Source: Polaribacter sp. L3A8 (GTDB taxonomy: Bacteria > Bacteroidota > Bacteroidia > Flavobacteriales > Flavobacteriaceae). Taken from it: a DNA stretch of 64,000 nucleotides. This document shows positions 52,170 to 61,263 of the stretch, in pieces. How positions within the stretch are numbered: the stretch's first letter is position 1; each line of letters starts with the position of its first letter. The notes beneath the pieces are model-generated. The model was not told the DNA's origin, made no database searches, and was given only the letters and a program-made list of their open reading frames with translations. The position numbers were made by a program, and so were the translations under genes. The stretch lies in NCBI RefSeq assembly GCF_009796785.1, contig NZ_CP047026.1:992001-1056000 (forward strand), given 5' to 3'.

Positions 52170-52221
52170 AAAAACCTCATCAAATTAATGATAAGGTTAA
52201 GTATATACAATTTCTAAAATA

Positions 52222-52896
52222 CTATATTTCTAATTTTAATGTTTTAATATCTGCAATTAATTGTTTTACAGAATTTTTACTTAAACCATTGTAAATACCT
52301 CTAATGTGTTTGTTTTTATCAATAAGAACAAAATTTTCTGTGTGTAAAAAATCGTCAATGCTTTTTGGTTTCCCTAGATCTTCTTCTACAAAATATGATT
52401 TTCTGCCTAAGTCGTAAATTTCTTTTTTATCACCAGTAACCAAATGCCAGTTCTTACCAATTTCTTTATCTAAAGCATATTTTTTTAACTGCGCAACAGA
52501 ATCTATGCTAGGTGTTACAGAATGAGAAAGTAATAATACTTCATCATCATTTTTAAAAGCATCTTGCACTAAAGACATATTACTTGTCATTTTAGGACAA
52601 ATACCTGGACACGTAGTAAAGAAAAAATCGGCCACATAAATTTTATTTTCAAATGTTTTCTGAGTAATATTTTTCCCATCCTGATCTGTTAAACTAAAAT
52701 CTGGAATGGTATGAAAAGATGTTAACTGATCACTTTTAGCAGCTATCCATTTAGGTGTAAATGAAGCTTCATTATAATAAGGTAAAACGTCGGTTTTACT
52801 AGAAATTTCTTTATGATCTGTTTTTTTACAACTTAAAAAAAGAAGTAAACTCACAACAACAAAACTATATATCTTTCTTTTCTTCAACTTTTTCAT
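52222..52896 (-). CDS. SCO family protein (copper/thiol protein)
   Basis: A 224-residue lipoprotein or membrane-anchored thioredoxin-fold protein; the N-terminal hydrophobic segment ends LLFLSCKKTDH. The SCO copper-binding site is visible as FFFTTCPGICPKMTSN near residue 95 (CxxxC), with the partner His in DFLHTENFVLIDK near 185. SCO proteins deliver copper to cytochrome oxidase or act as thiol-disulfide reductants. The start codon lies 32 bp inside the upstream YwqK-repeat gene, so translation is coupled. It is the last gene of a sigma-motif-controlled unit with YHYH and YwqK-type genes. Confidence 0.93.
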   Translation of the reverse strand: MKKLKKRKIYSFVVVSLLLFLSCKKTDHKEISSKTDVLPYYNEASFTPKWIAAKSDQLTSFHTIPDFSLTDQDGKNITQKTFENKIYVADFFFTTCPGICPKMTSNMSLVQDAFKNDDEVLLLSHSVTPSIDSVAQLKKYALDKEIGKNWHLVTGDKKEIYDLGRKSYFVEEDLGKPKSIDDFLHTENFVLIDKNKHIRGIYNGLSKNSVKQLIADIKTLKLEI

Positions 52897-53485
52897 TTTT
52901 TAATTGATAACATAAATTTGCGCGTTTCATACCAAAGGTTCTACCATTTTTAGCTTCATAGTTTACATAAATCTTACCATTTTGTAACCAAGCTCTTTGT
53001 AAACCGTTTTCATTTCCTTTTAGTAAATGTCTTTCTTTAGATAAGGTTCCGTTAGAAAACCATTGACGTTCTACTCCTTCTAACTTGCCCTTTTTGTAGT
53101 TTGCTTCAAAAGCTAAAGTTCCGTTTTGCCACCAAGCCTTGTAACTCCCTACAAGTACGTTTTGTTGGTAATGAGAAGCCATTTTTAAAACACCACTTTT
53201 AAACCAAACTTTGTAAACACCTTCTTTTTTACCATTATAAAAACCAGTTTTTTCTTTTAAAGTATCATTGGCGTGATATTTTACAGCAAACCCATTAAAA
53301 AGTGCATTCTTATAATACCAATTCCCTTCATTACCATTTAAAACCAAGCTATCTTTATGAACAATAATCTTGGTGTTAATTTCTACTTTTTTAAGAACGG
53401 TATCCTTTTTTGCACTATTGCTTGAAGAATTACAACCAATAATACAAATTGAAAAAAGGGGAAATAATAATCTTAAAAATCTCAT
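52865..53485 (-). CDS. YwqK/MORN-repeat lipoprotein
   Basis: A 206-residue lipoprotein starting at MRFLRLLFPLFSICIIGCNS; 21 upstream codons overlap the YHYH gene and would hide the signal peptide. Several MORN/YwqK-type repeats follow: GFYNGKKEGVYKVWFKSGVL, GSYKAWWQNGTLAFEANYKK and GVERQWFSNGTLSKERHLLK, each of about 20-24 residues with G-x-x-x-x-W/Y-x-x-G-x-L/K. The NCBI name for this group is 'YwqK family antitoxin', but no toxin partner is seen; a surface-exposed repeat scaffold is more likely. It lies between the YHYH and SCO genes in one unit. Confidence 0.85.
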   Translation of the reverse strand: MRFLRLLFPLFSICIIGCNSSSNSAKKDTVLKKVEINTKIIVHKDSLVLNGNEGNWYYKNALFNGFAVKYHANDTLKEKTGFYNGKKEGVYKVWFKSGVLKMASHYQQNVLVGSYKAWWQNGTLAFEANYKKGKLEGVERQWFSNGTLSKERHLLKGNENGLQRAWLQNGKIYVNYEAKNGRTFGMKRANLCYQLKNEKVEEKKDI

Positions 53486-53486
53486 T

Positions 53487-54254
53487 TTAGTAACCTTGGT
53501 AAGGACCTTCAAAAGCAATATAAGAACCTGTTGTAGCATATAATTCATTAATAATATGATAATGATATTCCTCTATCCCATCAGAATGTTGTGTTGTAGA
53601 AGTATGACCTCCAGAAGTATCTAAATCTGTTGGATACGTACCTGTTGCGTTACATTTTCTACCATACAAGAAAACTCCATCTAATAAAACACCTACTAAT
53701 TTGTCATCATCATCAGAAAATGCTTTTGGTTCTAAATGATAATGATAAACTCCAGGACCAATGTGTGCCCCAGTCCAATCTAAACTTGCTGCTGCTTGAT
53801 CTAAAGCTCCGTTTCCTTCTTGGTCATTAAAAATAGAAGCACCACTTACAGCAATACCTATGGTGTTTAATTGTGTACTAACAGTGCTACCCGTTAAATT
53901 TGGAGTAGCATCTACCGTAATGGTGGTTGCATTATTATTACTAGACATAATAGACGGCGTTGTAGCTACACCAGATTCCTCTCTATATAACTCACTTCCC
54001 TCTCCCCAATACACAGTTTCATGGTTTGGTAAACCTGTGGTTTCTATGGTAACGGTTGTACCACTATTAGATAAATAAATATCTGTAGCATCTGTATTAA
54101 ATTCGGAATATGCAGCATGTAATTCTGTAATTACAGTATCTGTATCGCTAACATCTACATCTGCCGCATCTACATCTGTATCTGAAGTACAAGAAACAAA
54201 TGCCGAAAAAAGTAATACTATAAGTGATGTGGTCTTAATAAATCGGTTTTTCAT
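53487..54254 (-). CDS. YHYH-domain lipoprotein
   Basis: A 255-residue lipoprotein (LFSAFVSCTSDTDVD). The acidic linker after the Cys is rich in Asp (DVDAADVDVSDTD), like several secreted proteins here. The YHYH domain shows two copies of its motif: GPGVYHYHLEPKAF near residue 165 and IEEYHYHIINELYA near 225, with LDGVFLYGRKC between them. Clustered His/Tyr suggests a metal site (copper?), which would fit the SCO protein in the same operon; this is inference. The stop is one base before the start of the YwqK-repeat gene. A conserved sigma-like promoter motif lies 26 nt upstream of the start. Confidence 0.88.
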   Translation of the reverse strand: MKNRFIKTTSLIVLLFSAFVSCTSDTDVDAADVDVSDTDTVITELHAAYSEFNTDATDIYLSNSGTTVTIETTGLPNHETVYWGEGSELYREESGVATTPSIMSSNNNATTITVDATPNLTGSTVSTQLNTIGIAVSGASIFNDQEGNGALDQAAASLDWTGAHIGPGVYHYHLEPKAFSDDDDKLVGVLLDGVFLYGRKCNATGTYPTDLDTSGGHTSTTQHSDGIEEYHYHIINELYATTGSYIAFEGPYQGY

Positions 54255-54280
54255 TTTTAGTGGTTTTGGGTTATTTAATA

Positions 54281-54308
54281 TTTAGATGCGAGCTCTATAA
54301 TAAACTTG
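54281..54308 (-). promoter_or_regulatory. Conserved bipartite promoter motif, YHYH/YwqK/SCO unit
   Basis: Minus strand: CAAGTTT, 14 nt, ATCTAAA. The -10-like part ends 26 nt before the ATG at 54254. It is one of five matching sites that precede the five transcription units downstream of the sigma factor gene at 60654. Confidence 0.65.
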
Positions 54309-54321
54309 CAATTTTTATTAT

Positions 54322-55410
54322 TTATTTTCTATTCGGTTTAGGTCCTTTCTCTAATTCATCTTTTGAAACATATCCATCTTTATTGCTATCAACCTTAGAA
54401 AAATCTTGCTTTAAAGGCCCTTTTACTTCTGTTCTAGATAATTTTCCGTCCTTATCGGTATCCATCATTTCTAATAGTTCCTCAAAGTTTTTACGCTTCC
54501 CTCCTTTTCTTCCATCATTTCCATCTCTAGGCGGTCCTCTACGTTCATCTTCTTTTACCTCTCCCATTAAACATCTGCTTACATACGGAAACTCATTTGT
54601 AACCAAGTACATATATTTTCCATCTATTGTAATTCCGTTGCATTCATCTAGATCTCCAGAATTTGCAACATATTCAAAATCGGAACCATAGGTTCCATCA
54701 TGATTATCGTTTAAAGCTATTTTTATGGTTTCTTTCGGATTTTCATAAACACAATCTTCTCCCTCTCTCGTTCCGTCTAATAATTTATAACTCGGTTTAT
54801 AGGCATTACTTTTAGAGTAATAAATAGGAAAACCATCGTGTGCAAAACCAACGTGTACCAAATCTTTTCCAGTATCAAATTCTTTAATTACAGAAGTTGG
54901 AGTTCCGTGATAATGATACTCCCCTGTTGGCTGTACGTGCGCATGATTAAAATCGAGACCAAGATCTATTACATCTTGGAAAGCTTCTACCCTATAATTC
55001 TCTCCCGTTTCACAAACAACAACTTCCGCGGTTCCTGGTTCAAACTTTACTCCGTTTAACGCAACTCCTGGTTCTCTAACCCAAGTTGCTTTCCCTGTAT
55101 ACTTTGGTTTTGCAGGAAAGGTGTATGTTTTATTCTGAGCAGAAATTATATTCGGATTTCCTTTTCTTGGAAAAGCACCTGTTTTATGATCTGGCAATGC
55201 ATTTGTAACCATTTTTCGTTCATCACCAGTTACAGTAACAATTGTTTTTGTTCCAAAAATTTTACTTATTAAACTATAGGAATCAAAATAATTTACAGCA
55301 ATACGTGTGTGGCTTTCTGTTTCTCCATTATGTGTATGCTTAGTCGCTTGACTTTTACACCCTATTAATAAAATACTTGCTAATATTGGTATGAAATACT
55401 TTTTCATCAT
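54322..55410 (-). CDS. YHYH lipoprotein with C-terminal EF-hand pair
   Basis: A 362-residue lipoprotein (ASILLIGCKSQ). Residues 90-285 form a YHYH-type domain with GEYHYHGTPTSV near 170, HVGFAHDGFPIYYSKSNAY near 200 and a Cys-containing tail. A basic/Pro/Gly linker follows. Residues 310-360 carry two EF-hand loops, DTDKDGKLSRTEV and DSNKDGYVSKDELE, with the canonical Asp/Asn/Gly/Glu spacing for Ca2+ binding. The EF-hand module is strikingly like that of the separate 97-residue protein at 59280. It forms its own transcription unit with the shared promoter motif 20 nt upstream. Confidence 0.88.
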   Translation of the reverse strand: MMKKYFIPILASILLIGCKSQATKHTHNGETESHTRIAVNYFDSYSLISKIFGTKTIVTVTGDERKMVTNALPDHKTGAFPRKGNPNIISAQNKTYTFPAKPKYTGKATWVREPGVALNGVKFEPGTAEVVVCETGENYRVEAFQDVIDLGLDFNHAHVQPTGEYHYHGTPTSVIKEFDTGKDLVHVGFAHDGFPIYYSKSNAYKPSYKLLDGTREGEDCVYENPKETIKIALNDNHDGTYGSDFEYVANSGDLDECNGITIDGKYMYLVTNEFPYVSRCLMGEVKEDERRGPPRDGNDGRKGGKRKNFEELLEMMDTDKDGKLSRTEVKGPLKQDFSKVDSNKDGYVSKDELEKGPKPNRK

Positions 55411-55430
55411 TTTAAATTGTTTTATAAAAG

Positions 55431-55458
55431 TTTAGATGTCCTTTTATGAATAAACTTG
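55431..55458 (-). promoter_or_regulatory. Conserved bipartite promoter motif, YHYH/EF-hand gene
   Basis: Minus strand: CAAGTTT, 14 nt, ATCTAAA, ending 20 nt before the ATG at 55410. The spacing is identical to the motifs at 54281, 59603 and 60624. Confidence 0.65.
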
Positions 55459-55484
55459 TGTTCTTTAACTTTTTTTAACAAAAA

Positions 55485-55514
55485 AAGCTTTCTAATTTCT
55501 TAGAAAGCTTTTAA
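55485..55514 (-). terminator. Terminator of the VTC/DUF4956/DUF2490 unit
   Basis: AAAAGCTTTCTAA / TTAGAAAGCTTTT: a perfect long stem with a short TTTC-type loop and flanking A/T runs, about 20 bp past the DUF2490 stop codon. Confidence 0.85.
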
Positions 55515-55534
55515 TAATTAATCGAACTTTAATA

Positions 55535-56284
55535 CTATTTTTTTCGTTTAGATGATTTTTTATTTTTAAAAGAGTAGGTATATTTTAGTCCTAAAATATT
55601 TGTGATGTCCGGAAAATCTACATTCAACTCTTTTTCAAATCGATAAAACACCCCTACTTTACCAAAATTTTTTATTTTATAGTCTGTACCTAAAGTTAAT
55701 CTATATTTATTAAATCCATTTTCATCTCCATCTTGAAACTTATTAAATATTTCTGCAGAAAATTTAGGATCAAATTTCCAATTTTTAAAATTGTATTCTA
55801 GAGAAGTCTTAAAACGAATGTTTTGATTTGCCTCATCTCCTTCATCAGTAGAAACACCTAATTCATTTTTATTTTGATAACGCAATCTATATCCAATTTC
55901 TAGATTATTAATTTGATGTTTGTACATGGCATCAACCTGAAATCTAAAATGATTTTCATAGCCTTGTATATTTCCTTTATTATCATTCTCTCTTATATAC
56001 CTTGCACCTACACCCATTTTAAAATCTTTAAACAAGGTGTATTCTGCATTTAATTCGGTAAAAAAGGCATCAACTTCAGAGAAGTTTTCTTTTAATCTAA
56101 ACTGTTCTTCTAAGCCAAAACTCCACTTTTTATTCAACTTATATTCTACTCCCAAGGTACTCCAAGAAGCCCAATCACTATCTGCTGTTTGCCCATAATT
56201 TAAACTTGTAAATAAAATTGCATTTAAGACTAACAACTTTAAAAATAGTGCTTTTTTTGTGCTGATTATACTCATTATATCCAT
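55535..56284 (-). CDS. DUF2490-family outer-membrane beta-barrel-like protein
   Basis: A 249-residue protein with a signal peptide (ending near LNYGQTADSDW). The mature part reads as repeated amphipathic beta-strands: WSSWSTLGVEYKLNKKWSF-like pattern, MGVGARYIRENDNKGNIQG, LEIGYRLRYQNKNELG and KYRLTLGTDYKIKNFGKVGV. This is the DUF2490 pattern, a small outer-membrane barrel. The C-terminal residues are Lys/Arg-rich after the last strand. It lies 19 bp after the DUF4956 gene and is third in the unit with VTC and DUF4956. It may form the outer-membrane part of that system. Confidence 0.85.
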   Translation of the reverse strand: MDIMSIISTKKALFLKLLVLNAILFTSLNYGQTADSDWASWSTLGVEYKLNKKWSFGLEEQFRLKENFSEVDAFFTELNAEYTLFKDFKMGVGARYIRENDNKGNIQGYENHFRFQVDAMYKHQINNLEIGYRLRYQNKNELGVSTDEGDEANQNIRFKTSLEYNFKNWKFDPKFSAEIFNKFQDGDENGFNKYRLTLGTDYKIKNFGKVGVFYRFEKELNVDFPDITNILGLKYTYSFKNKKSSKRKK

Positions 56285-56303
56285 TTATTTTTAAGTTAAA
56301 AGC

Positions 56304-56906
56304 CTATTTATTTTTGTAATAAAAAATAACAATTGTTGCAGTATCTTTTAAAAAATCTACCTGACCAATATCTATAGAGTTAATAGACAAACCCGTTCTG
56401 TTTTCTAAATCTTCTTTTAAGAGATGATAATTTTCAGGTTTAATATTTTCTATATTTTCATAAACAATAGACTTAGAAACCACTTGTTTTAAAGCCCAAT
56501 ATTTTTCGATAAGCAACAGTACAGTAACAATAATTATATTTGCAGATAAAATTTCTGCATAACTCATTTTTTTATTTGCCAAAGAATTAATTATTGAAAC
56601 CCCAATAACCACAAACAAATACGTCATTTCTTTAATATCTACAGGATTTGTTCTGTATCTAATAATACCAAAAATGGCAAATAACCCCAAGGCCATTCCA
56701 ATATCCATTTGATATTTTTTAAGCGTAAAACATAAGAAAAACACAATGAGACTAATTAAGTAATACGTAAAAACGTAGTCTTTTCTTTTTGAAATAGGAT
56801 AGTAAATAAATCGAATAATTATGGTTAGAAAAATATAGTTTAAACAAAGTCTAAACATCATTTTAAAAAAATCATCATCGAATAAAGGGATATCTAAAAA
56901 CTCCAT
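56304..56906 (-). CDS. DUF4956-family membrane protein
   Basis: A 200-residue protein with four to five membrane helices in its first 130 residues (segments near 18-36, 48-63, 70-88, 93-110, 115-132). The conserved loop DIGMALGLFAIFGIIRYRTN, with the PVDIKEMTYLF that follows, is the DUF4956 signature and resembles MgtC-type membrane proteins. The C-terminal 65 residues form a small soluble domain (LKEDLENRTGLSINSIDIGQ). The start is 2 bp after the VTC gene stop. VTC and DUF4956 genes are, to my knowledge, often neighbours, together with CotH. Its function is unproven. Confidence 0.9.
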   Translation of the reverse strand: MEFLDIPLFDDDFFKMMFRLCLNYIFLTIIIRFIYYPISKRKDYVFTYYLISLIVFFLCFTLKKYQMDIGMALGLFAIFGIIRYRTNPVDIKEMTYLFVVIGVSIINSLANKKMSYAEILSANIIIVTVLLLIEKYWALKQVVSKSIVYENIENIKPENYHLLKEDLENRTGLSINSIDIGQVDFLKDTATIVIFYYKNK

Positions 56907-56908
56907 AG

Positions 56909-57658
56909 TTATGCAATTATATTATTTATTTTTATTAATTTTCTTTTAAAAACATTGTACTTTAAATCATTATAAAGACTAACCATACCAATACAATACT
57001 TGCTAATACTATAAGGATTTTGATGAATTGATTTTAATGATTTTACAATTTCTGATTTTCGGTTAAACCGTTCTTGTTTTACCTCTATCACTACTAGATT
57101 CTTGAAGTCTTTTTTAACTTCATTCATTTTATACGATAAATTAAGATCTACCGTAACACGTTCTTTACTTTTTAAATTTACAAGTGTTATTCTATTAAAA
57201 CCATTCCATAAACTAGGCTCTAAATGATATTCTTGAAGTGTAGTCGATGAAATAAAATCTTTAGAAGATTGGGTTAAGTTCAACTCAAAATCAGAAACAG
57301 GTATTCTTGATTTATTGGTTTCTCCTTTACCATTTTTTTGTTTTATCTCTAAAAAACAAAGATCAGATTCTATATATTTTCTTTGTCTAATTTTTGTTCT
57401 GTTATTTTTTCCGTTATGATGATCGTTATAAAATTTATTTTCAATTGTATCAAAATATAAAGACGAATAACTCATTATTCTATCTTTTTTAATTTCTAAA
57501 ACCTTATAATGATTTCTTATTTCTTTTAGAATAGAAAATAACTGAATTTTATTAATTACAAATTTAGTATCCGTTCTTTTCATTAATGCTACACTATTCA
57601 TTTCCTCTAAAGAAATCGAAGAAAAATTTTCCATAATACTTTTAATATTATCTACCAT
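56909..57658 (-). CDS. VTC-domain protein (polyphosphate polymerase-like)
   Basis: A 249-residue soluble protein of the VTC/triphosphate-tunnel family. The tunnel residues are in alternating charged strands: LMKRTDTKFVINKIQL near residue 25, SSLYFDTIENKFYNDHHNGK near 63, RTKIRQRKY near 86, LCFLEIKQKNGKGETNKSRI near 97, RVTVDLNLSYKM near 168 and VVIEVKQERF near 188. The end has ISKYCIGMVSLY, matching the family's SK-x-C-x-G motif. In yeast the Vtc4 domain makes polyphosphate from ATP. The bacterial homologues next to DUF4956 and CotH are uncharacterised to my knowledge. It is first in its unit. Confidence 0.9.
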   Translation of the reverse strand: MVDNIKSIMENFSSISLEEMNSVALMKRTDTKFVINKIQLFSILKEIRNHYKVLEIKKDRIMSYSSLYFDTIENKFYNDHHNGKNNRTKIRQRKYIESDLCFLEIKQKNGKGETNKSRIPVSDFELNLTQSSKDFISSTTLQEYHLEPSLWNGFNRITLVNLKSKERVTVDLNLSYKMNEVKKDFKNLVVIEVKQERFNRKSEIVKSLKSIHQNPYSISKYCIGMVSLYNDLKYNVFKRKLIKINNIIA

Positions 57659-57693
57659 ATATTCATTTTATATTATAATTATGTTATATAAAG

Positions 57694-57718
57694 TTTAGAT
57701 ACTGTTTTTTTAAACTTG
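57694..57718 (-). promoter_or_regulatory. Bipartite promoter motif (shorter spacer), VTC unit
   Basis: Minus strand: CAAGTTT, 11 nt, ATCTAAA, ending 35 nt before the ATG at 57658. Both halves are exact but the spacer is 3 nt shorter than in the other four, so this site is weaker or the alignment differs. Confidence 0.5.
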
Positions 57719-57743
57719 TATTACCTTCAGTGAAAAAGACATT

Positions 57744-57780
57744 AAAAAAAAGCCTCACAATTTTATATGAAGCTTTTAAT
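57744..57780 (-). terminator. Terminator of the EF-hand/CotH unit
   Basis: AAAAGCCTCA ... TGAAGCTTTT on the plus strand; imperfect stem with a long T run on the minus strand, about 30 bp past the CotH stop codon. Confidence 0.6.
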
Positions 57781-57808
57781 AACTAACCAAACTCAAATAC
57801 TATTTTCT

Positions 57809-59236
57809 TTAATTTAAATAAGCTGCTACTGCAGCTTTTCTAGAAGTTGCATGTGATTTTAATTGGCTAACTGCCGATTGAAAATCTGAACTGTTATTTA
57901 AAAATGTATAACCTGTAACTTCTGATGTTGCATATTCTTCTACTAAAGCGGCATAGCTTGTATATAAAGCCTGAATTGTAGATTCATTAAACGCACCGTT
58001 TATAACCTCTTCTACATACGCATCATACTTTTCTTTATACACTTCATCTTGATACATATACCCTATTAATGGCCATTGAGAAGCTGTTAATCCAGAGAAA
58101 TTTAAAGATAAAGCACCACCTTGTTTACCTGTCTGTAAAGCTTCATTATTATCCCAAGGAATCCAAGTTAGTTTACTCGTAGCAGGATCATTGTATAAGA
58201 AATAATTATGTGTCATTCTACCATAGGTATCCCAATTTTGAACCACTGTATTTACAGCCAAGTATTTTAAAAATATGTCGGTATCAAAAACAGCATCTAA
58301 ACTTGTTCTCCAAGCGGCAGCATCTGTAGTTTTTGTACCATCATTTATAATTGTTAAAAGACTTTGTACATCAGAAAAATCTGCCTCATCTTCATTATTT
58401 TTCTTTACATATTCGTCTTCATCAAAAGTTCCATTTGCAAAACTTGCAGCATCACCATCTGGTTTGTATAGATTTCCTCCATCATCAGAAAATTGTGTAT
58501 CTAAAACACTACCATCTACCTCTTCTACTAAAGTATACAATCCAAAATATTGTGGTCCATTACCATGATCCACATATAATGTGTAAAAAGCGGTATGAGA
58601 CGCCACTAAGCCAGCGTTTCTAAACACATCTGTAGCTACTTTTTCTCTTAACATAGAACTATCATCATAATTATTTTTAAGACTTAATTTCTTAATTCCG
58701 TAAAAACGTTGATTCTTTATTTGAGGATAATCATCTTCAAACTCATCAAAATCTAATTTGAATGATAATTTTAAAATCCCTGCTTGCCAACTACTTTTTA
58801 AACTTGAATTTCCTTTAAAACGCAAACCAACTCTATACCATTCTTTCCCTTCATAAAACACTTCTCCAGGCACAAAAATTGGATCTTCATCGATATCTAC
58901 AGAAACACCAGGTCCTCCTGCAGAACTTCCTCCAAATGTTCCATAAAGGTTCTCCATATCATCTAACATGGTTTGCCAACGAGCTTCCGTAATAACAAAG
59001 TCTAACCTTTTTACTGTGTTATCTTCAAAAACTTCGCTAATATTAGCATCTACATCTTTACTATGTGTAGCCTCTGTCCAGTCTATAGCTTCAAAATCTG
59101 TATCATCTATTACTACAGCAACTTCATTACTATCATCTGTATCATCTACTGTAACATCAGAAACATCATCACTTGTACACGAAAAAATAAAAAGTGTAAT
59201 CACTAATGAGAATAATTTAATTTTATAATTTTTCAT
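57809..59236 (-). CDS. CotH kinase-family lipoprotein
   Basis: A 475-residue lipoprotein starting at MKNYKIKLFSLVITLFIFSC; 28 further codons are open upstream but include a charged stretch that would ruin the signal peptide. The Asp-rich linker DDVSDVTVDDTDDSN follows the Cys. The CotH domain shows VKRLDFVITEARWQTML near 70, RVGLRFKGNSSLKSSWQAG near 140, KKLSLKNNYDDSSMLREKVA near 185, then TVVQNWDTYGRMTHNYFLYN and KLTWIPWDNNEAL near 355, the metal-binding DN motif. CotH of Bacillus spores is an atypical protein kinase. It follows the EF-hand gene in the same unit. Confidence 0.92.
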   Translation of the reverse strand: MKNYKIKLFSLVITLFIFSCTSDDVSDVTVDDTDDSNEVAVVIDDTDFEAIDWTEATHSKDVDANISEVFEDNTVKRLDFVITEARWQTMLDDMENLYGTFGGSSAGGPGVSVDIDEDPIFVPGEVFYEGKEWYRVGLRFKGNSSLKSSWQAGILKLSFKLDFDEFEDDYPQIKNQRFYGIKKLSLKNNYDDSSMLREKVATDVFRNAGLVASHTAFYTLYVDHGNGPQYFGLYTLVEEVDGSVLDTQFSDDGGNLYKPDGDAASFANGTFDEDEYVKKNNEDEADFSDVQSLLTIINDGTKTTDAAAWRTSLDAVFDTDIFLKYLAVNTVVQNWDTYGRMTHNYFLYNDPATSKLTWIPWDNNEALQTGKQGGALSLNFSGLTASQWPLIGYMYQDEVYKEKYDAYVEEVINGAFNESTIQALYTSYAALVEEYATSEVTGYTFLNNSSDFQSAVSQLKSHATSRKAAVAAYLN

Positions 59237-59279
59237 AATTAATTGTTTGATTGATTTTTTTGATTCTATTTTGTTATCC

Positions 59280-59573
59280 TTATTTTCTTGGTCTTTCTCT
59301 TCTCTCTGGTTTAGGAGCATCTTTCAGTTCTTTTTCTGAAATGAAACCATCTTCATCAGTATCAACTTTTTTAAAATCTTTTGCCAAAGGCCCTTTTACT
59401 TCTTTTTGAGAAATTTTACCATCTTCGTTTGCATCAAATTCTTTTAAAAGTTGTTTAAATGTTGGTGGTCCTTTTGGTTTGTCATCAGAATTATCTGCTT
59501 GTGCAAAACTTGATGCTGACACCCCTAAAGAAACTATTATGACTGCTAAAATTTTATTTGTTGAGTTTTTCAT
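59280..59573 (-). CDS. Secreted EF-hand protein
   Basis: A 97-residue protein with a signal peptide (ILAVIIVSLGVSASSFAQAD). Two EF-hand loops follow: DANEDGKISQKEV and DTDEDGFISEKELK, with all calcium-coordinating positions filled. Between them is EVKGPLAKDFKKV, nearly the same as the EVKGPLKQDFSKV of the YHYH protein at 54322. The C-terminus is Pro/Arg-rich (PKPERRERPRK). It lies 43 bp upstream of the CotH gene and shares its promoter motif, 29 nt before the start. It is likely a periplasmic or surface calcium-binding partner of the CotH kinase-like protein. Confidence 0.9.
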   Translation of the reverse strand: MKNSTNKILAVIIVSLGVSASSFAQADNSDDKPKGPPTFKQLLKEFDANEDGKISQKEVKGPLAKDFKKVDTDEDGFISEKELKDAPKPERRERPRK

Positions 59574-59602
59574 TTTAAATCTATTTATTAAGTTTATATA
59601 CC

Positions 59603-59630
59603 TTTAGATGCTAGTCCTTTTAAAAACTTG
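59603..59630 (-). promoter_or_regulatory. Conserved bipartite promoter motif, EF-hand/CotH unit
   Basis: Minus strand: CAAGTTT, 14 nt, ATCTAAA, ending 29 nt before the ATG at 59573. The 9 nt before ATCTAAA end in CTAGC, as in the site at 60624. Confidence 0.65.
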
Positions 59631-59739
59631 TGCACGTTAACTTTACTTTAACATATCTAATTAAAAAATAGTAACACCTAAAACTAAAGCATTAACTTTA
59701 TTATAAAATACTTTAAAAACCAACTTTATAATTCTCAAA

Positions 59740-59778
59740 AAAAAAAGATCCAAAGCAGTTAAGCTTTGGATCTTTTTT
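59740..59778. terminator. Terminator after the Spy/CpxP-like gene
   Basis: AAAAAAGATCCAAAGC / GCTTTGGATCTTTTTT, a long perfect stem with a 5-7 nt loop and symmetrical A/T runs. Confidence 0.9.
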
Positions 59779-59802
59779 ATAACTAAATTATTTATAAATA
59801 TA

Positions 59803-60264
59803 TTATCTTGGTGGAGGCATCCTTCTATTATTTGGTGGCATTCTATCTCCGCCCCTTATTGCTTCTTTAATTATTTTATCAAACTTTTGCACTTGATCTG
59901 CAGTACAAATTTTTCTTACTTGTTTAAAAAAAGTAAAAACCTCTGCATCTTTTTTTGCTTGTAAAAGTCCAATTTTTGTAGTTAAAGAATCAATTGTAAA
60001 ATTTTCTTTATTAAAGCCATCAAATAAAAGATCTTTTTGATTTTTAACTTGATCCTCTAAATTTCTCATAACATCTCTATGCGCAACATCTAAAGTTCTA
60101 AATGCTTCTTTTTGAGTTTCAGAAAAACTTAATTGAGCTGTTAAAAAATTCCTTTTTGGATTGTTATGTTGATTTTCATGCGGTTTTTTTACCAACATAA
60201 AAATTAGTACTCCATTTAATAATACTAACAAGATGATAAGAATAGGAAGTAATTTTGATTTCAT
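59803..60264 (-). CDS. Spy/CpxP-like periplasmic metal-stress protein
   Basis: A 153-residue protein with one N-terminal membrane segment or uncleaved signal (LPILIILLVLLNGVLIFMLV) and a helical periplasmic part. AQLSFSETQKEAFRTLDVAH near residue 45 resembles the first LTxxQ-type repeat of Spy/CpxP/heavy-metal-sensor (CnrX-like) proteins, and KICTADQVQKFDKIIKEAI near 115 the second. The C-terminus is Pro/Arg/Met-rich (GGDRMPPNNRRMPPPR). In the five-unit cluster it would act as the periplasmic sensor or chaperone arm, next to an anti-sigma-like gene. The exact ligand is not visible. Confidence 0.82.
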   Translation of the reverse strand: MKSKLLPILIILLVLLNGVLIFMLVKKPHENQHNNPKRNFLTAQLSFSETQKEAFRTLDVAHRDVMRNLEDQVKNQKDLLFDGFNKENFTIDSLTTKIGLLQAKKDAEVFTFFKQVRKICTADQVQKFDKIIKEAIRGGDRMPPNNRRMPPPR

Positions 60265-60269
60265 AACTT

Positions 60270-60593
60270 TTAATTTAAAATAGAACTGCTATCTGATTGT
60301 AAAGAGTATTCTTGTGCAAATGTTTTAATATCTGAGGTAGAACTAGCACTTTGTGACGAATTGTTAAAAGCATAAAAAATAGTTCCGAAATTTAATAACA
60401 ATATAACACTCAGAGTTGCCAATTGCAATTGCGGTGTAAACCAAGAAAAAACAGGTGTCTTCTCTTCCTTTTCTGCATTTAACTTTTGCAAAACCTTATG
60501 TTTAAAAAAGTGATTTACTTCAACTTTTTTAATATTATCTAATGCTTTAAAAGCATCATCTACCTGCTGATTTATGTCTTTTTTAGTTTTCAT
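60270..60593 (-). CDS. Single-spanning anti-sigma-like protein
   Basis: A 107-residue protein with a cytoplasmic N-terminus of about 50 residues (DINQQVDDAFKALDNIKKVE ... FFKHKVLQKLNAE), one membrane helix near 57-75 (TLSVILLLNFGTIFYAF) and a short periplasmic tail rich in Ser. The size, single helix, position directly after a sigma-factor gene and proximity to a CpxP-like gene fit an anti-sigma factor. No zinc-binding (HxxxCxxC) motif is present, so the assignment rests on context. It has its own copy of the promoter motif, which begins 3 bp past the sigma gene stop. Confidence 0.7.
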   Translation of the reverse strand: MKTKKDINQQVDDAFKALDNIKKVEVNHFFKHKVLQKLNAEKEEKTPVFSWFTPQLQLATLSVILLLNFGTIFYAFNNSSQSASSTSDIKTFAQEYSLQSDSSSILN

Positions 60594-60623
60594 TTTTTTG
60601 TGTTCTTAAAACAATACTATTTA

Positions 60624-60651
60624 TTTAGATGCTAGAAATTATAAAAACTTG
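60624..60651 (-). promoter_or_regulatory. Conserved bipartite promoter motif, anti-sigma/CpxP unit
   Basis: Minus strand: CAAGTTT, 14 nt, ATCTAAA, ending 30 nt before the ATG at 60593. It is placed just after the sigma-factor stop codon, so the anti-sigma-like gene can be induced separately from the sigma gene. Confidence 0.65.
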
Positions 60652-60653
60652 CA

Positions 60654-61232
60654 CTAATTTTCTGATTTATAAAAATTCTCTAATTTATCTTGCAATCCTT
60701 TCTTAGCCCTAAACATTAAAGATTCTACTGATGATAAGCTTTTACCTGTAATTTCTACAATTTCTTGGTAACTTTTATCATCAATCTTTGCCAACGTAAA
60801 AACAACTCTTTGTGCTTCTGGCAAGGTATTTATAGCCTTAAAGATGATGGCAGATTTTTCTTGGTTCTCTAATAAAATTCCTGGATGATTAACTTCTGTA
60901 AAGTAACTTGTCTTATCTATAGGTATTTCATTACCTAAAATTGTTTGCATAAACGCAAACCTTTTTTTAGTGTTCTTTTTTCTGATGAATTCTAAACACT
61001 TATTGGTAGCTATCTTGTATATCCAAGTAGATAATTTAGAATCACCTTTAAATTTATTTATCGACTTAAACACTTCTAAAAAAACTTCTTGCGCAACATC
61101 TTCTGCATCTTCTTTATTTGGAATAAAGGAAATACAGGTACCAAAAACTTTCTGCTGGTAATCATCTAAAAGTTGACTAAATGCAGCTTGTTTTCCTGCT
61201 TGTAATTCTACTATAAAAGATTCTTCGTTCAA
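60654..61232 (-). CDS. ECF-type RNA polymerase sigma factor
   Basis: A 192-residue sigma-70 family protein if started at TTG (61232). A longer frame reaches ATG at 61298, but its first codons lie inside a terminator hairpin and encode a Phe/Leu/Tyr-rich stretch foreign to sigma factors. Region 2 is clear: DYQQKVFGTCISFIPNKEDA, then EDVAQEVFLEVFKSINKFKG and SKLSTWIYKIATNKCLEFIR. Region 4 is LPEAQRVVFTLAKIDDKSYQ followed by EIVEITGKSLSSVESLMFRA. It directs RNA polymerase to special promoters; the CAAGTTT-N14-ATCTAAA motif in front of five following units is the best candidate. No such motif precedes the sigma gene itself. Confidence 0.92.
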   Translation of the reverse strand: MNEESFIVELQAGKQAAFSQLLDDYQQKVFGTCISFIPNKEDAEDVAQEVFLEVFKSINKFKGDSKLSTWIYKIATNKCLEFIRKKNTKKRFAFMQTILGNEIPIDKTSYFTEVNHPGILLENQEKSAIIFKAINTLPEAQRVVFTLAKIDDKSYQEIVEITGKSLSSVESLMFRAKKGLQDKLENFYKSEN

Positions 61233-61263
61233 AGGGGGGCGCTTATTAAAAAAGTAAACATAC

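Follow-up and report, generated by a model that had tools for sequence, protein, structure and literature searches.

The genome of Polaribacter sp. L3A8 (Flavobacteriaceae) carries, in a window of 64,000 nucleotides (nt; contig NZ_CP047026.1, positions 992,001 to 1,056,000), a gene for an extracytoplasmic function (ECF) sigma factor at 60654-61232 on the minus strand, and behind this gene the same two-block motif recurs in front of units encoding mainly envelope proteins. Judged from the sequence, the motif is very probably the promoter recognised by this sigma factor. The initial annotation had proposed the same link, which now finds support in a site matrix, in site counts over whole genomes, in the co-occurrence of motif and sigma gene, and in the fixed spacing of the two blocks.

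Motif sites in the window and in the genome

The motif CAAGTTT-N14-ATCTAAA was found without mismatch at 54281-54308, 55431-55458, 59603-59630 and 60624-60651, all on the minus strand, and no other exact match exists in the 64 kb. A better form of it is GC[GA]CAAGTTT-N13-CATCTAAA, and the extended consensus taken from the site matrix reads GC[GA]CAAGTTTTT, about 10 freer bases, then GCATCTAAA. The position weight matrix (PWM) was derived from 96 sites with at most one mismatch at 31 loci. An ATG frame of at least 80 codons begins within 120 nt of the motif in 82 of these sites, the other 14 being dropped; all 82 training sites came from other genomes, and the own genome was left out. With this matrix the four sites scored 44.3 (59603), 39.1 (60624), 36.5 (54281) and 35.7 bits (55431), versus 4.2 for the runner-up elsewhere in the window and a maximum of 10.1 over 20 simulated windows. 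The four exact sites with their 14-nt spacer were present as first described. When up to three mismatches were allowed, the window contained 38 matches against 39.3 expected, so the information lies in the exact matches only.

A fifth site at 57694-57718 (-) also has both blocks as claimed, with a spacer of 11, i.e. 3 nt short. Its -35 half scores 9.9 bits, and its -10 half reaches a good score of 8.1 bits only if the gap ahead of CATCTAAA is set to 10 nt, against 13 in the family. This site, in front of the VTC gene, is outside the family promoter model because its spacing is off. The distance from the second block to the start codon is 26, 20, 35, 29 and 30 nt for the sites at 54281, 55431, 57694, 59603 and 60624, respectively, within the previously given range of 20-35 nt.

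The whole 4.22-Mb genome (G000) has five exact sites of the N13-CATCTAAA form, namely the four in the window and one at G000:C1:1715837-1715864. At up to two mismatches, the same form gave 66 matches versus 54 with a reversed control, so near-matches are mainly due to chance. Three sites with a single mismatch were discarded: 2006990 is located between converging genes with a hairpin and a T-run recognised by eye (PWM 17.1), 2375104 is antisense within a 675-codon frame (PWM -1.2), and 617979 scored -0.4. The two-mismatch sites at 301720 and 507572 scored 4.9 and 14.3. The matrix scores and the genome-wide site counts indicated that the motif is not random background, and the equal frequency that would have spoken against a regulon was not seen.

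The motif resembles the promoters of Escherichia coli RpoE and Bacillus subtilis SigW in being bipartite, with an AA-containing -35 block and TCTAA in the -10 block. The RpoE consensus has GAACTT at -35 and TCTAA within -10. In contrast, the -35 block here is CAAGTT and the -10 block is CATCTAAA. In the same bacterial family, the ECF promoter motif SM6, with a CGT box, has been reported for Flavobacterium psychrophilum from mapped start sites, where it precedes, among others, genes of the type IX secretion system (T9SS) (PMC9723704). The two are alike as ECF-type promoter classes, whereas the motif described here has CATC and a different gene set. Among the matches listed in open-access PubMed Central, no paper on the regulon or the motif was found by title or abstract, which does not prove that none exists.

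Tie between the motif and the sigma gene across genomes

A close copy of the sigma gene (75-99% identity) is present in 12 of 59 genomes, the own genome among them, and one of the 12 copies is a fragment lying at the end of a contig; in the remaining 47 genomes, identity reaches 40% at best. Exact sites were found in all 12 sigma-bearing genomes (1-5 each, 35 in total), versus one of the 47 genomes without a close copy, and that one site is inside a 502-codon frame and scores 9.5. The reversed control pattern gave nine sites in the 59 genomes. When the spacer was left free from 3 to 28, the sigma-bearing genomes gave 69 sites, 35 of them at N13 and 34 over the other 25 lengths, versus 68 sites in the 47 other genomes, with one at N13 and 13 belonging to one repeat of G046. 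Since the genomes share kinship, formal probabilities for co-occurrence and spacing overstate independence. The G046 repeat, CAAGTTTTATTATCATCTAAA, occurs in 13 identical copies in that 1.9-Mb genome and is a dispersed repeat with apparently no relation to the promoter described here.

At family level, the sigma gene was detected in 35 of 299 genomes including the own one, and in 29 of 236 genera (E up to 1e-40). The motif lies between the sigma gene and the gene of the anti-sigma candidate in 11/11 genus relatives (10 exact, one with one mismatch) and at 29/29 loci from other genera (20 exact, six with one mismatch, three with two). The latter loci were drawn from 34 further sigma-bearing family genomes, with G274 and G144 outside the count and G268, G286 and G327 unread. 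Among 80 named loci of Flavobacteriaceae, which are the best 80 of 223 relatives, the motif is found at this position with a PWM score of at least 20 in 79, and the exception, L225, reaches the edge of its contig. The three locus sets overlap in part, and the 80 loci include some genomes used for matrix training. The recurrence at orthologous clusters that the initial annotation had named as a check was thus seen in each set.

At the 80 named loci, the first genes after 275 motifs encode the anti-sigma candidate (77), EF-hand proteins (54), YHYH2 proteins (42), the sigma factor itself (22), CotH (16), YHYH-EF (16) and VTC (7, each after a normally spaced motif at one of seven loci), with 17 other frames and 24 motifs for which none was found. 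The sigma gene had been described as lacking the motif. This holds for the own genome in the PWM scan but not family-wide, as 22 of the 80 named loci have a motif before sigma. None of these 22 comes from a Polaribacter record; the nearest named sigma genes are from Polaribacter (90-91%).

Gene order and grouping vary between species, and most runs have a motif ahead of their first gene. No separate motif precedes the VTC gene of G015 or the YHYH-MORN-SCO1 genes of L061 and L068, all of which trail other targets. The VTC operon of G019 is on a separate contig and has an exact motif in front, as does a second CotH-domain gene elsewhere in that genome. G023 has no close sigma copy, and its VTC site reads CCCGTTT...CATCTAAA (PWM 15.8), and the other eight VTC loci read in genomes without a close copy have no motif within two mismatches before VTC. 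Near the cluster, on the other strand, a second ECF sigma gene (~25-32% identical) was observed at several of L186-L203 and at L206-L208.

The fifth exact site of the own genome marks a sixth target 0.66 Mb away, the gene for a protein of 188 amino acids (aa). This gene is preceded by an exact motif in G000, G034, G015 and G024, and has no motif in G019, G021, G001 and G026, nor in G023, G013 and G031, which have no sigma gene, nor in 14 remoter relatives. The pattern lends partial support to the tie between sigma and motif. A Spy-like label for the 188-aa protein was dropped, as it had no Pfam match at E 0.01.

Two other readings of the motif were weighed. It might be the operator of a different DNA-binding regulator, with the sigma gene a neighbour by chance and the two conserved blocks as half-sites. 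However, neither block is a direct or inverted repeat of the other, the site faces a gene in 82 of 96 cases, its distance to the start codon and its shape suit an ECF promoter, and its presence tracks the sigma gene (12/12 versus 1/47) with unlinked sites included, so this reading appears very improbable. Use of the motif by a different ECF sigma factor of this genome, in addition or instead, is also improbable, if somewhat less so. The own genome has 18 sigma-like matches, this sigma included, and the clusters of several relatives have the other ECF sigma gene (~25-35% identical) nearby; yet 46 of the 47 genomes without this sigma have no exact sites, even though the majority contain more than one ECF match.

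The sigma factor and its putative membrane switch

The sigma gene encodes a protein of 192 aa with Sigma70 regions 2 and 4 only (Pfam Sigma70_r2 6e-17, Sigma70_r4_2 4e-15), which together with a length of about 190 aa places it in the ECF type. Its start codon appears to be TTG, since in 73/73 readable loci of the 80 named ones (seven were not read) a TTG coincides with the aligned start or is no more than two codons away from it, mostly with no in-frame ATG near. A run of six C is located one base before this TTG in the window (61230-61239, -). The nearest solved structures are RpoE (8e-26) and SigW (8e-22), both ranking ahead of CnrH (4e-8).

The first gene behind the 60624 motif, at 60270-60593 (-), encodes an anti-sigma candidate of 107 aa with one membrane span, proposed from its position after sigma and from its alignment, in which an FFKdK segment, the hydrophobic span and a C-terminal FAe.YGL are conserved. 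The candidate itself matched no Pfam or NCBIfam family, no Pfam family was matched by more than two of 39 members, no RseA-like domain was found by Pfam (unlike the RpoE system), and the best PDB match of the profile was unrelated (E 0.17). Its length and single span are compatible with the class II, CnrY-like type. ECF sigma factors of Bacteroidota seldom adjoin a recognised anti-sigma domain, with class I in 6% (PMC7406223).

The second gene of this unit, at 59803-60264 (-), encodes a 153-aa protein which the structure model identifies as a putative membrane-anchored sensor, with CnrX as the best structural match and an N-terminal membrane anchor. Against PDB sequences, the best match of the sensor profile is Spy (2.3e-5). 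The metal ligands of CnrX are H42, H46, E63, H119 and M123. The equivalent sensor positions, estimated from aligned ranges only as ~37, 41, 58, 112 and 116, are not conserved as ligands, position 112 being His in 19/39 homologs. Other residues are conserved, namely H62 (35/39), M66 (34/39) and C120 (37/39).

In the cnr system, the sigma, anti-sigma and sensor genes are adjacent. The locus is like CnrYXH and NccYXH of Cupriavidus metallidurans in its adjacent sigma gene, small single-span anti-sigma candidate and CnrX-fold sensor; since a small membrane anti-sigma candidate and a CnrX-like sensor follow the sigma gene, the switch probably works like CnrH-CnrY-CnrX. Unlike CnrYXH, the sigma factor is nearer to RpoE and SigW, the CnrX ligand positions are apparently not conserved (approximate positions), no efflux pump is among the targets read here, and the phylum is different.

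In the resting cell, the 107-aa protein would tether the sigma factor to the inner membrane, and the sensor would maintain or release this grip, these roles being assigned because of gene order, fold and the CnrYXH system. Upon a signal, the sigma factor would be freed and would start transcription from GC[GA]CAAGTTT-N13-CATCTAAA promoters. It would drive the unit of its own anti-sigma factor and sensor, which would form a negative feedback loop, together with the EF-hand/CotH, YHYH-EF and YHYH-MORN-SCO1 units and the distant 188-aa gene, and perhaps the VTC operon.

Sister systems in two other families conserve the order of sigma gene, 80-89-aa single-span frame and sensor; the presumed anti-sigma frames were assigned by position, not by similarity. 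In G039 (L072:11616-15957), a sigma gene (40%), an 89-aa frame and a sensor of the same type are accompanied by genes for MbnP (1e-37), an MbnH-like enzyme and a YHYH protein that ends in a T9SS tail. In G045 (L073:4011-15548), a sigma gene (38%), an 80-aa frame and a sensor stand together with ASST, two CotH, VTC, DUF4956 and DUF2490 genes in one run, nearly head to tail. By eye, AAGGA-N15-CGTCTAA was recognised at two places in L072, ahead of the YHYH gene and ahead of the presumed anti-sigma frame, and AAGGA-N15-CGTCAAA at one place in L073, ahead of the corresponding frame. These three sites hint at a variant motif AAGGA-N15-CGTC[TA]AA. A dyad enumeration of L073, where the genes are nearly head to tail, gave no motif repeated between units.

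The best guess for the signal, still a tentative one, is periplasmic copper or some other soft metal of that compartment. The hint comes from SCO1, from MbnH-like genes behind exact motifs, and from MbnP with the MbnH-like enzyme at L072. Against a general copper signal, L072 is the one locus out of 113 with an MbnP match, and MbnH-like proteins occur in 5/113. Somewhat less likely is that the same regulon responds not to a metal but to misfolding in the envelope or damage to the surface, perceived through a Spy/CpxP-like protein. Spy being the best PDB sequence match of the sensor profile and the secreted or membrane-bound appearance of most targets favour this alternative; the copper-related genes listed above favour the metal.

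Probable target genes and their significance

The units behind the motifs are all on the minus strand. Behind the 59603 motif are an EF-hand pair protein of 97 aa with a signal-like start (59280-59573; EF-hand_1 6e-11) and a CotH kinase-domain protein of 475 aa with a lipoprotein-like start (57809-59236; CotH 2e-70), followed by a terminator-like hairpin at 57748-57777. The third unit, behind the off-spacing copy, encodes a putative polyphosphate polymerase with a VTC domain (249 aa, 56909-57658; VTC 2e-29), a DUF4956 protein (200 aa, 56304-56906; 8e-52) and a DUF2490 protein, probably an outer-membrane barrel (249 aa, 55535-56284; 5e-26), with a hairpin at 55483-55512. At the G015 locus (L066:7460-9141), the DUF2490 match is split into two pieces separated by about 1 kb, as though interrupted. 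The VTC residues R87, K89, R91, R93, E104, K106, R156, E192 and K194 are invariant in 18/18 aligned homologs; such charged residues have a role in VTC polymerase activity, so an active polymerase is plausible.

The 55431 motif precedes a YHYH protein of 362 aa with C-terminal EF-hands (54322-55410; YHYH 2e-54, EF-hand_5 2e-10). The 54281 motif precedes a YHYH-family protein of 255 aa (53487-54254; YHYH 8e-8), a MORN-repeat protein (longest frame 52865-53548, true start perhaps 53486; MORN_2 1e-8) and a SCO1/SenC protein of 224 aa (52222-52896; SCO1-SenC 1e-26), with a hairpin at 52173-52198. The hairpins after CotH, DUF2490 and SCO1 are compatible with separate transcription units. Neither the VTC nor the YHYH profile had a meaningful PDB sequence relative, and the structure model of the YHYH protein was poor (mean pLDDT 58.9). 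The initial annotation had joined ten genes in one regulon. The five units hold 11 predicted genes. The reading as one regulon is supported, with the VTC unit off-spacing and one further target far away.

In 20 longer family loci, YHYH2 was found in 18, SCO1 in 17, EF-hand in 17 (counting the EF-hand parts of YHYH proteins), CotH in 10 and VTC in two; L189 has none of these, L204 is short, and some cluster genes are inverted in L204 and L205. Rarer genes behind motifs encode Cthe_2159, ASST, Lcl_C and MbnH-like di-heme proteins, the last immediately after exact motifs in L069, L070 and L218, and sulfatase-like proteins (named by eye) are also among the rarer cluster genes. The recurrent targets are YHYH, MORN, SCO1, EF-hand and CotH, with VTC-DUF4956-DUF2490 in some species.

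In Gram-positive bacteria, CotH, polyphosphate polymerase and DUF4956 genes have been reported together beside Pel polysaccharide clusters (PMC7112168). The same three families occur together here too, whereas their setting here is an ECF-type motif and a neighbourhood of EF-hand, YHYH and SCO1 genes.

The targets form a recurring set of cell-envelope genes, most of them little characterised. Dozens of genomes show the sigma factor, the anti-sigma candidate, the sensor, the promoter motif and the targets side by side, which makes the regulon testable with a reporter. The regulon also joins the little-known families YHYH, MORN, DUF4956, DUF2490, bacterial VTC and CotH in one programme and narrows the range of their possible functions. 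One unlikely but possible interpretation is an envelope programme of Flavobacteriales triggered by copper or another soft metal, in which a sensor of CnrX fold, bearing a novel His/Met/Cys site, would free the sigma factor to express a CotH surface kinase, a polyphosphate polymerase with its DUF4956 partner, calcium-binding EF-hand proteins and YHYH-MORN-SCO1. If this were true, YHYH-MORN-SCO1 would be a new copper-handling unit and the YHYH proteins would gain a function.

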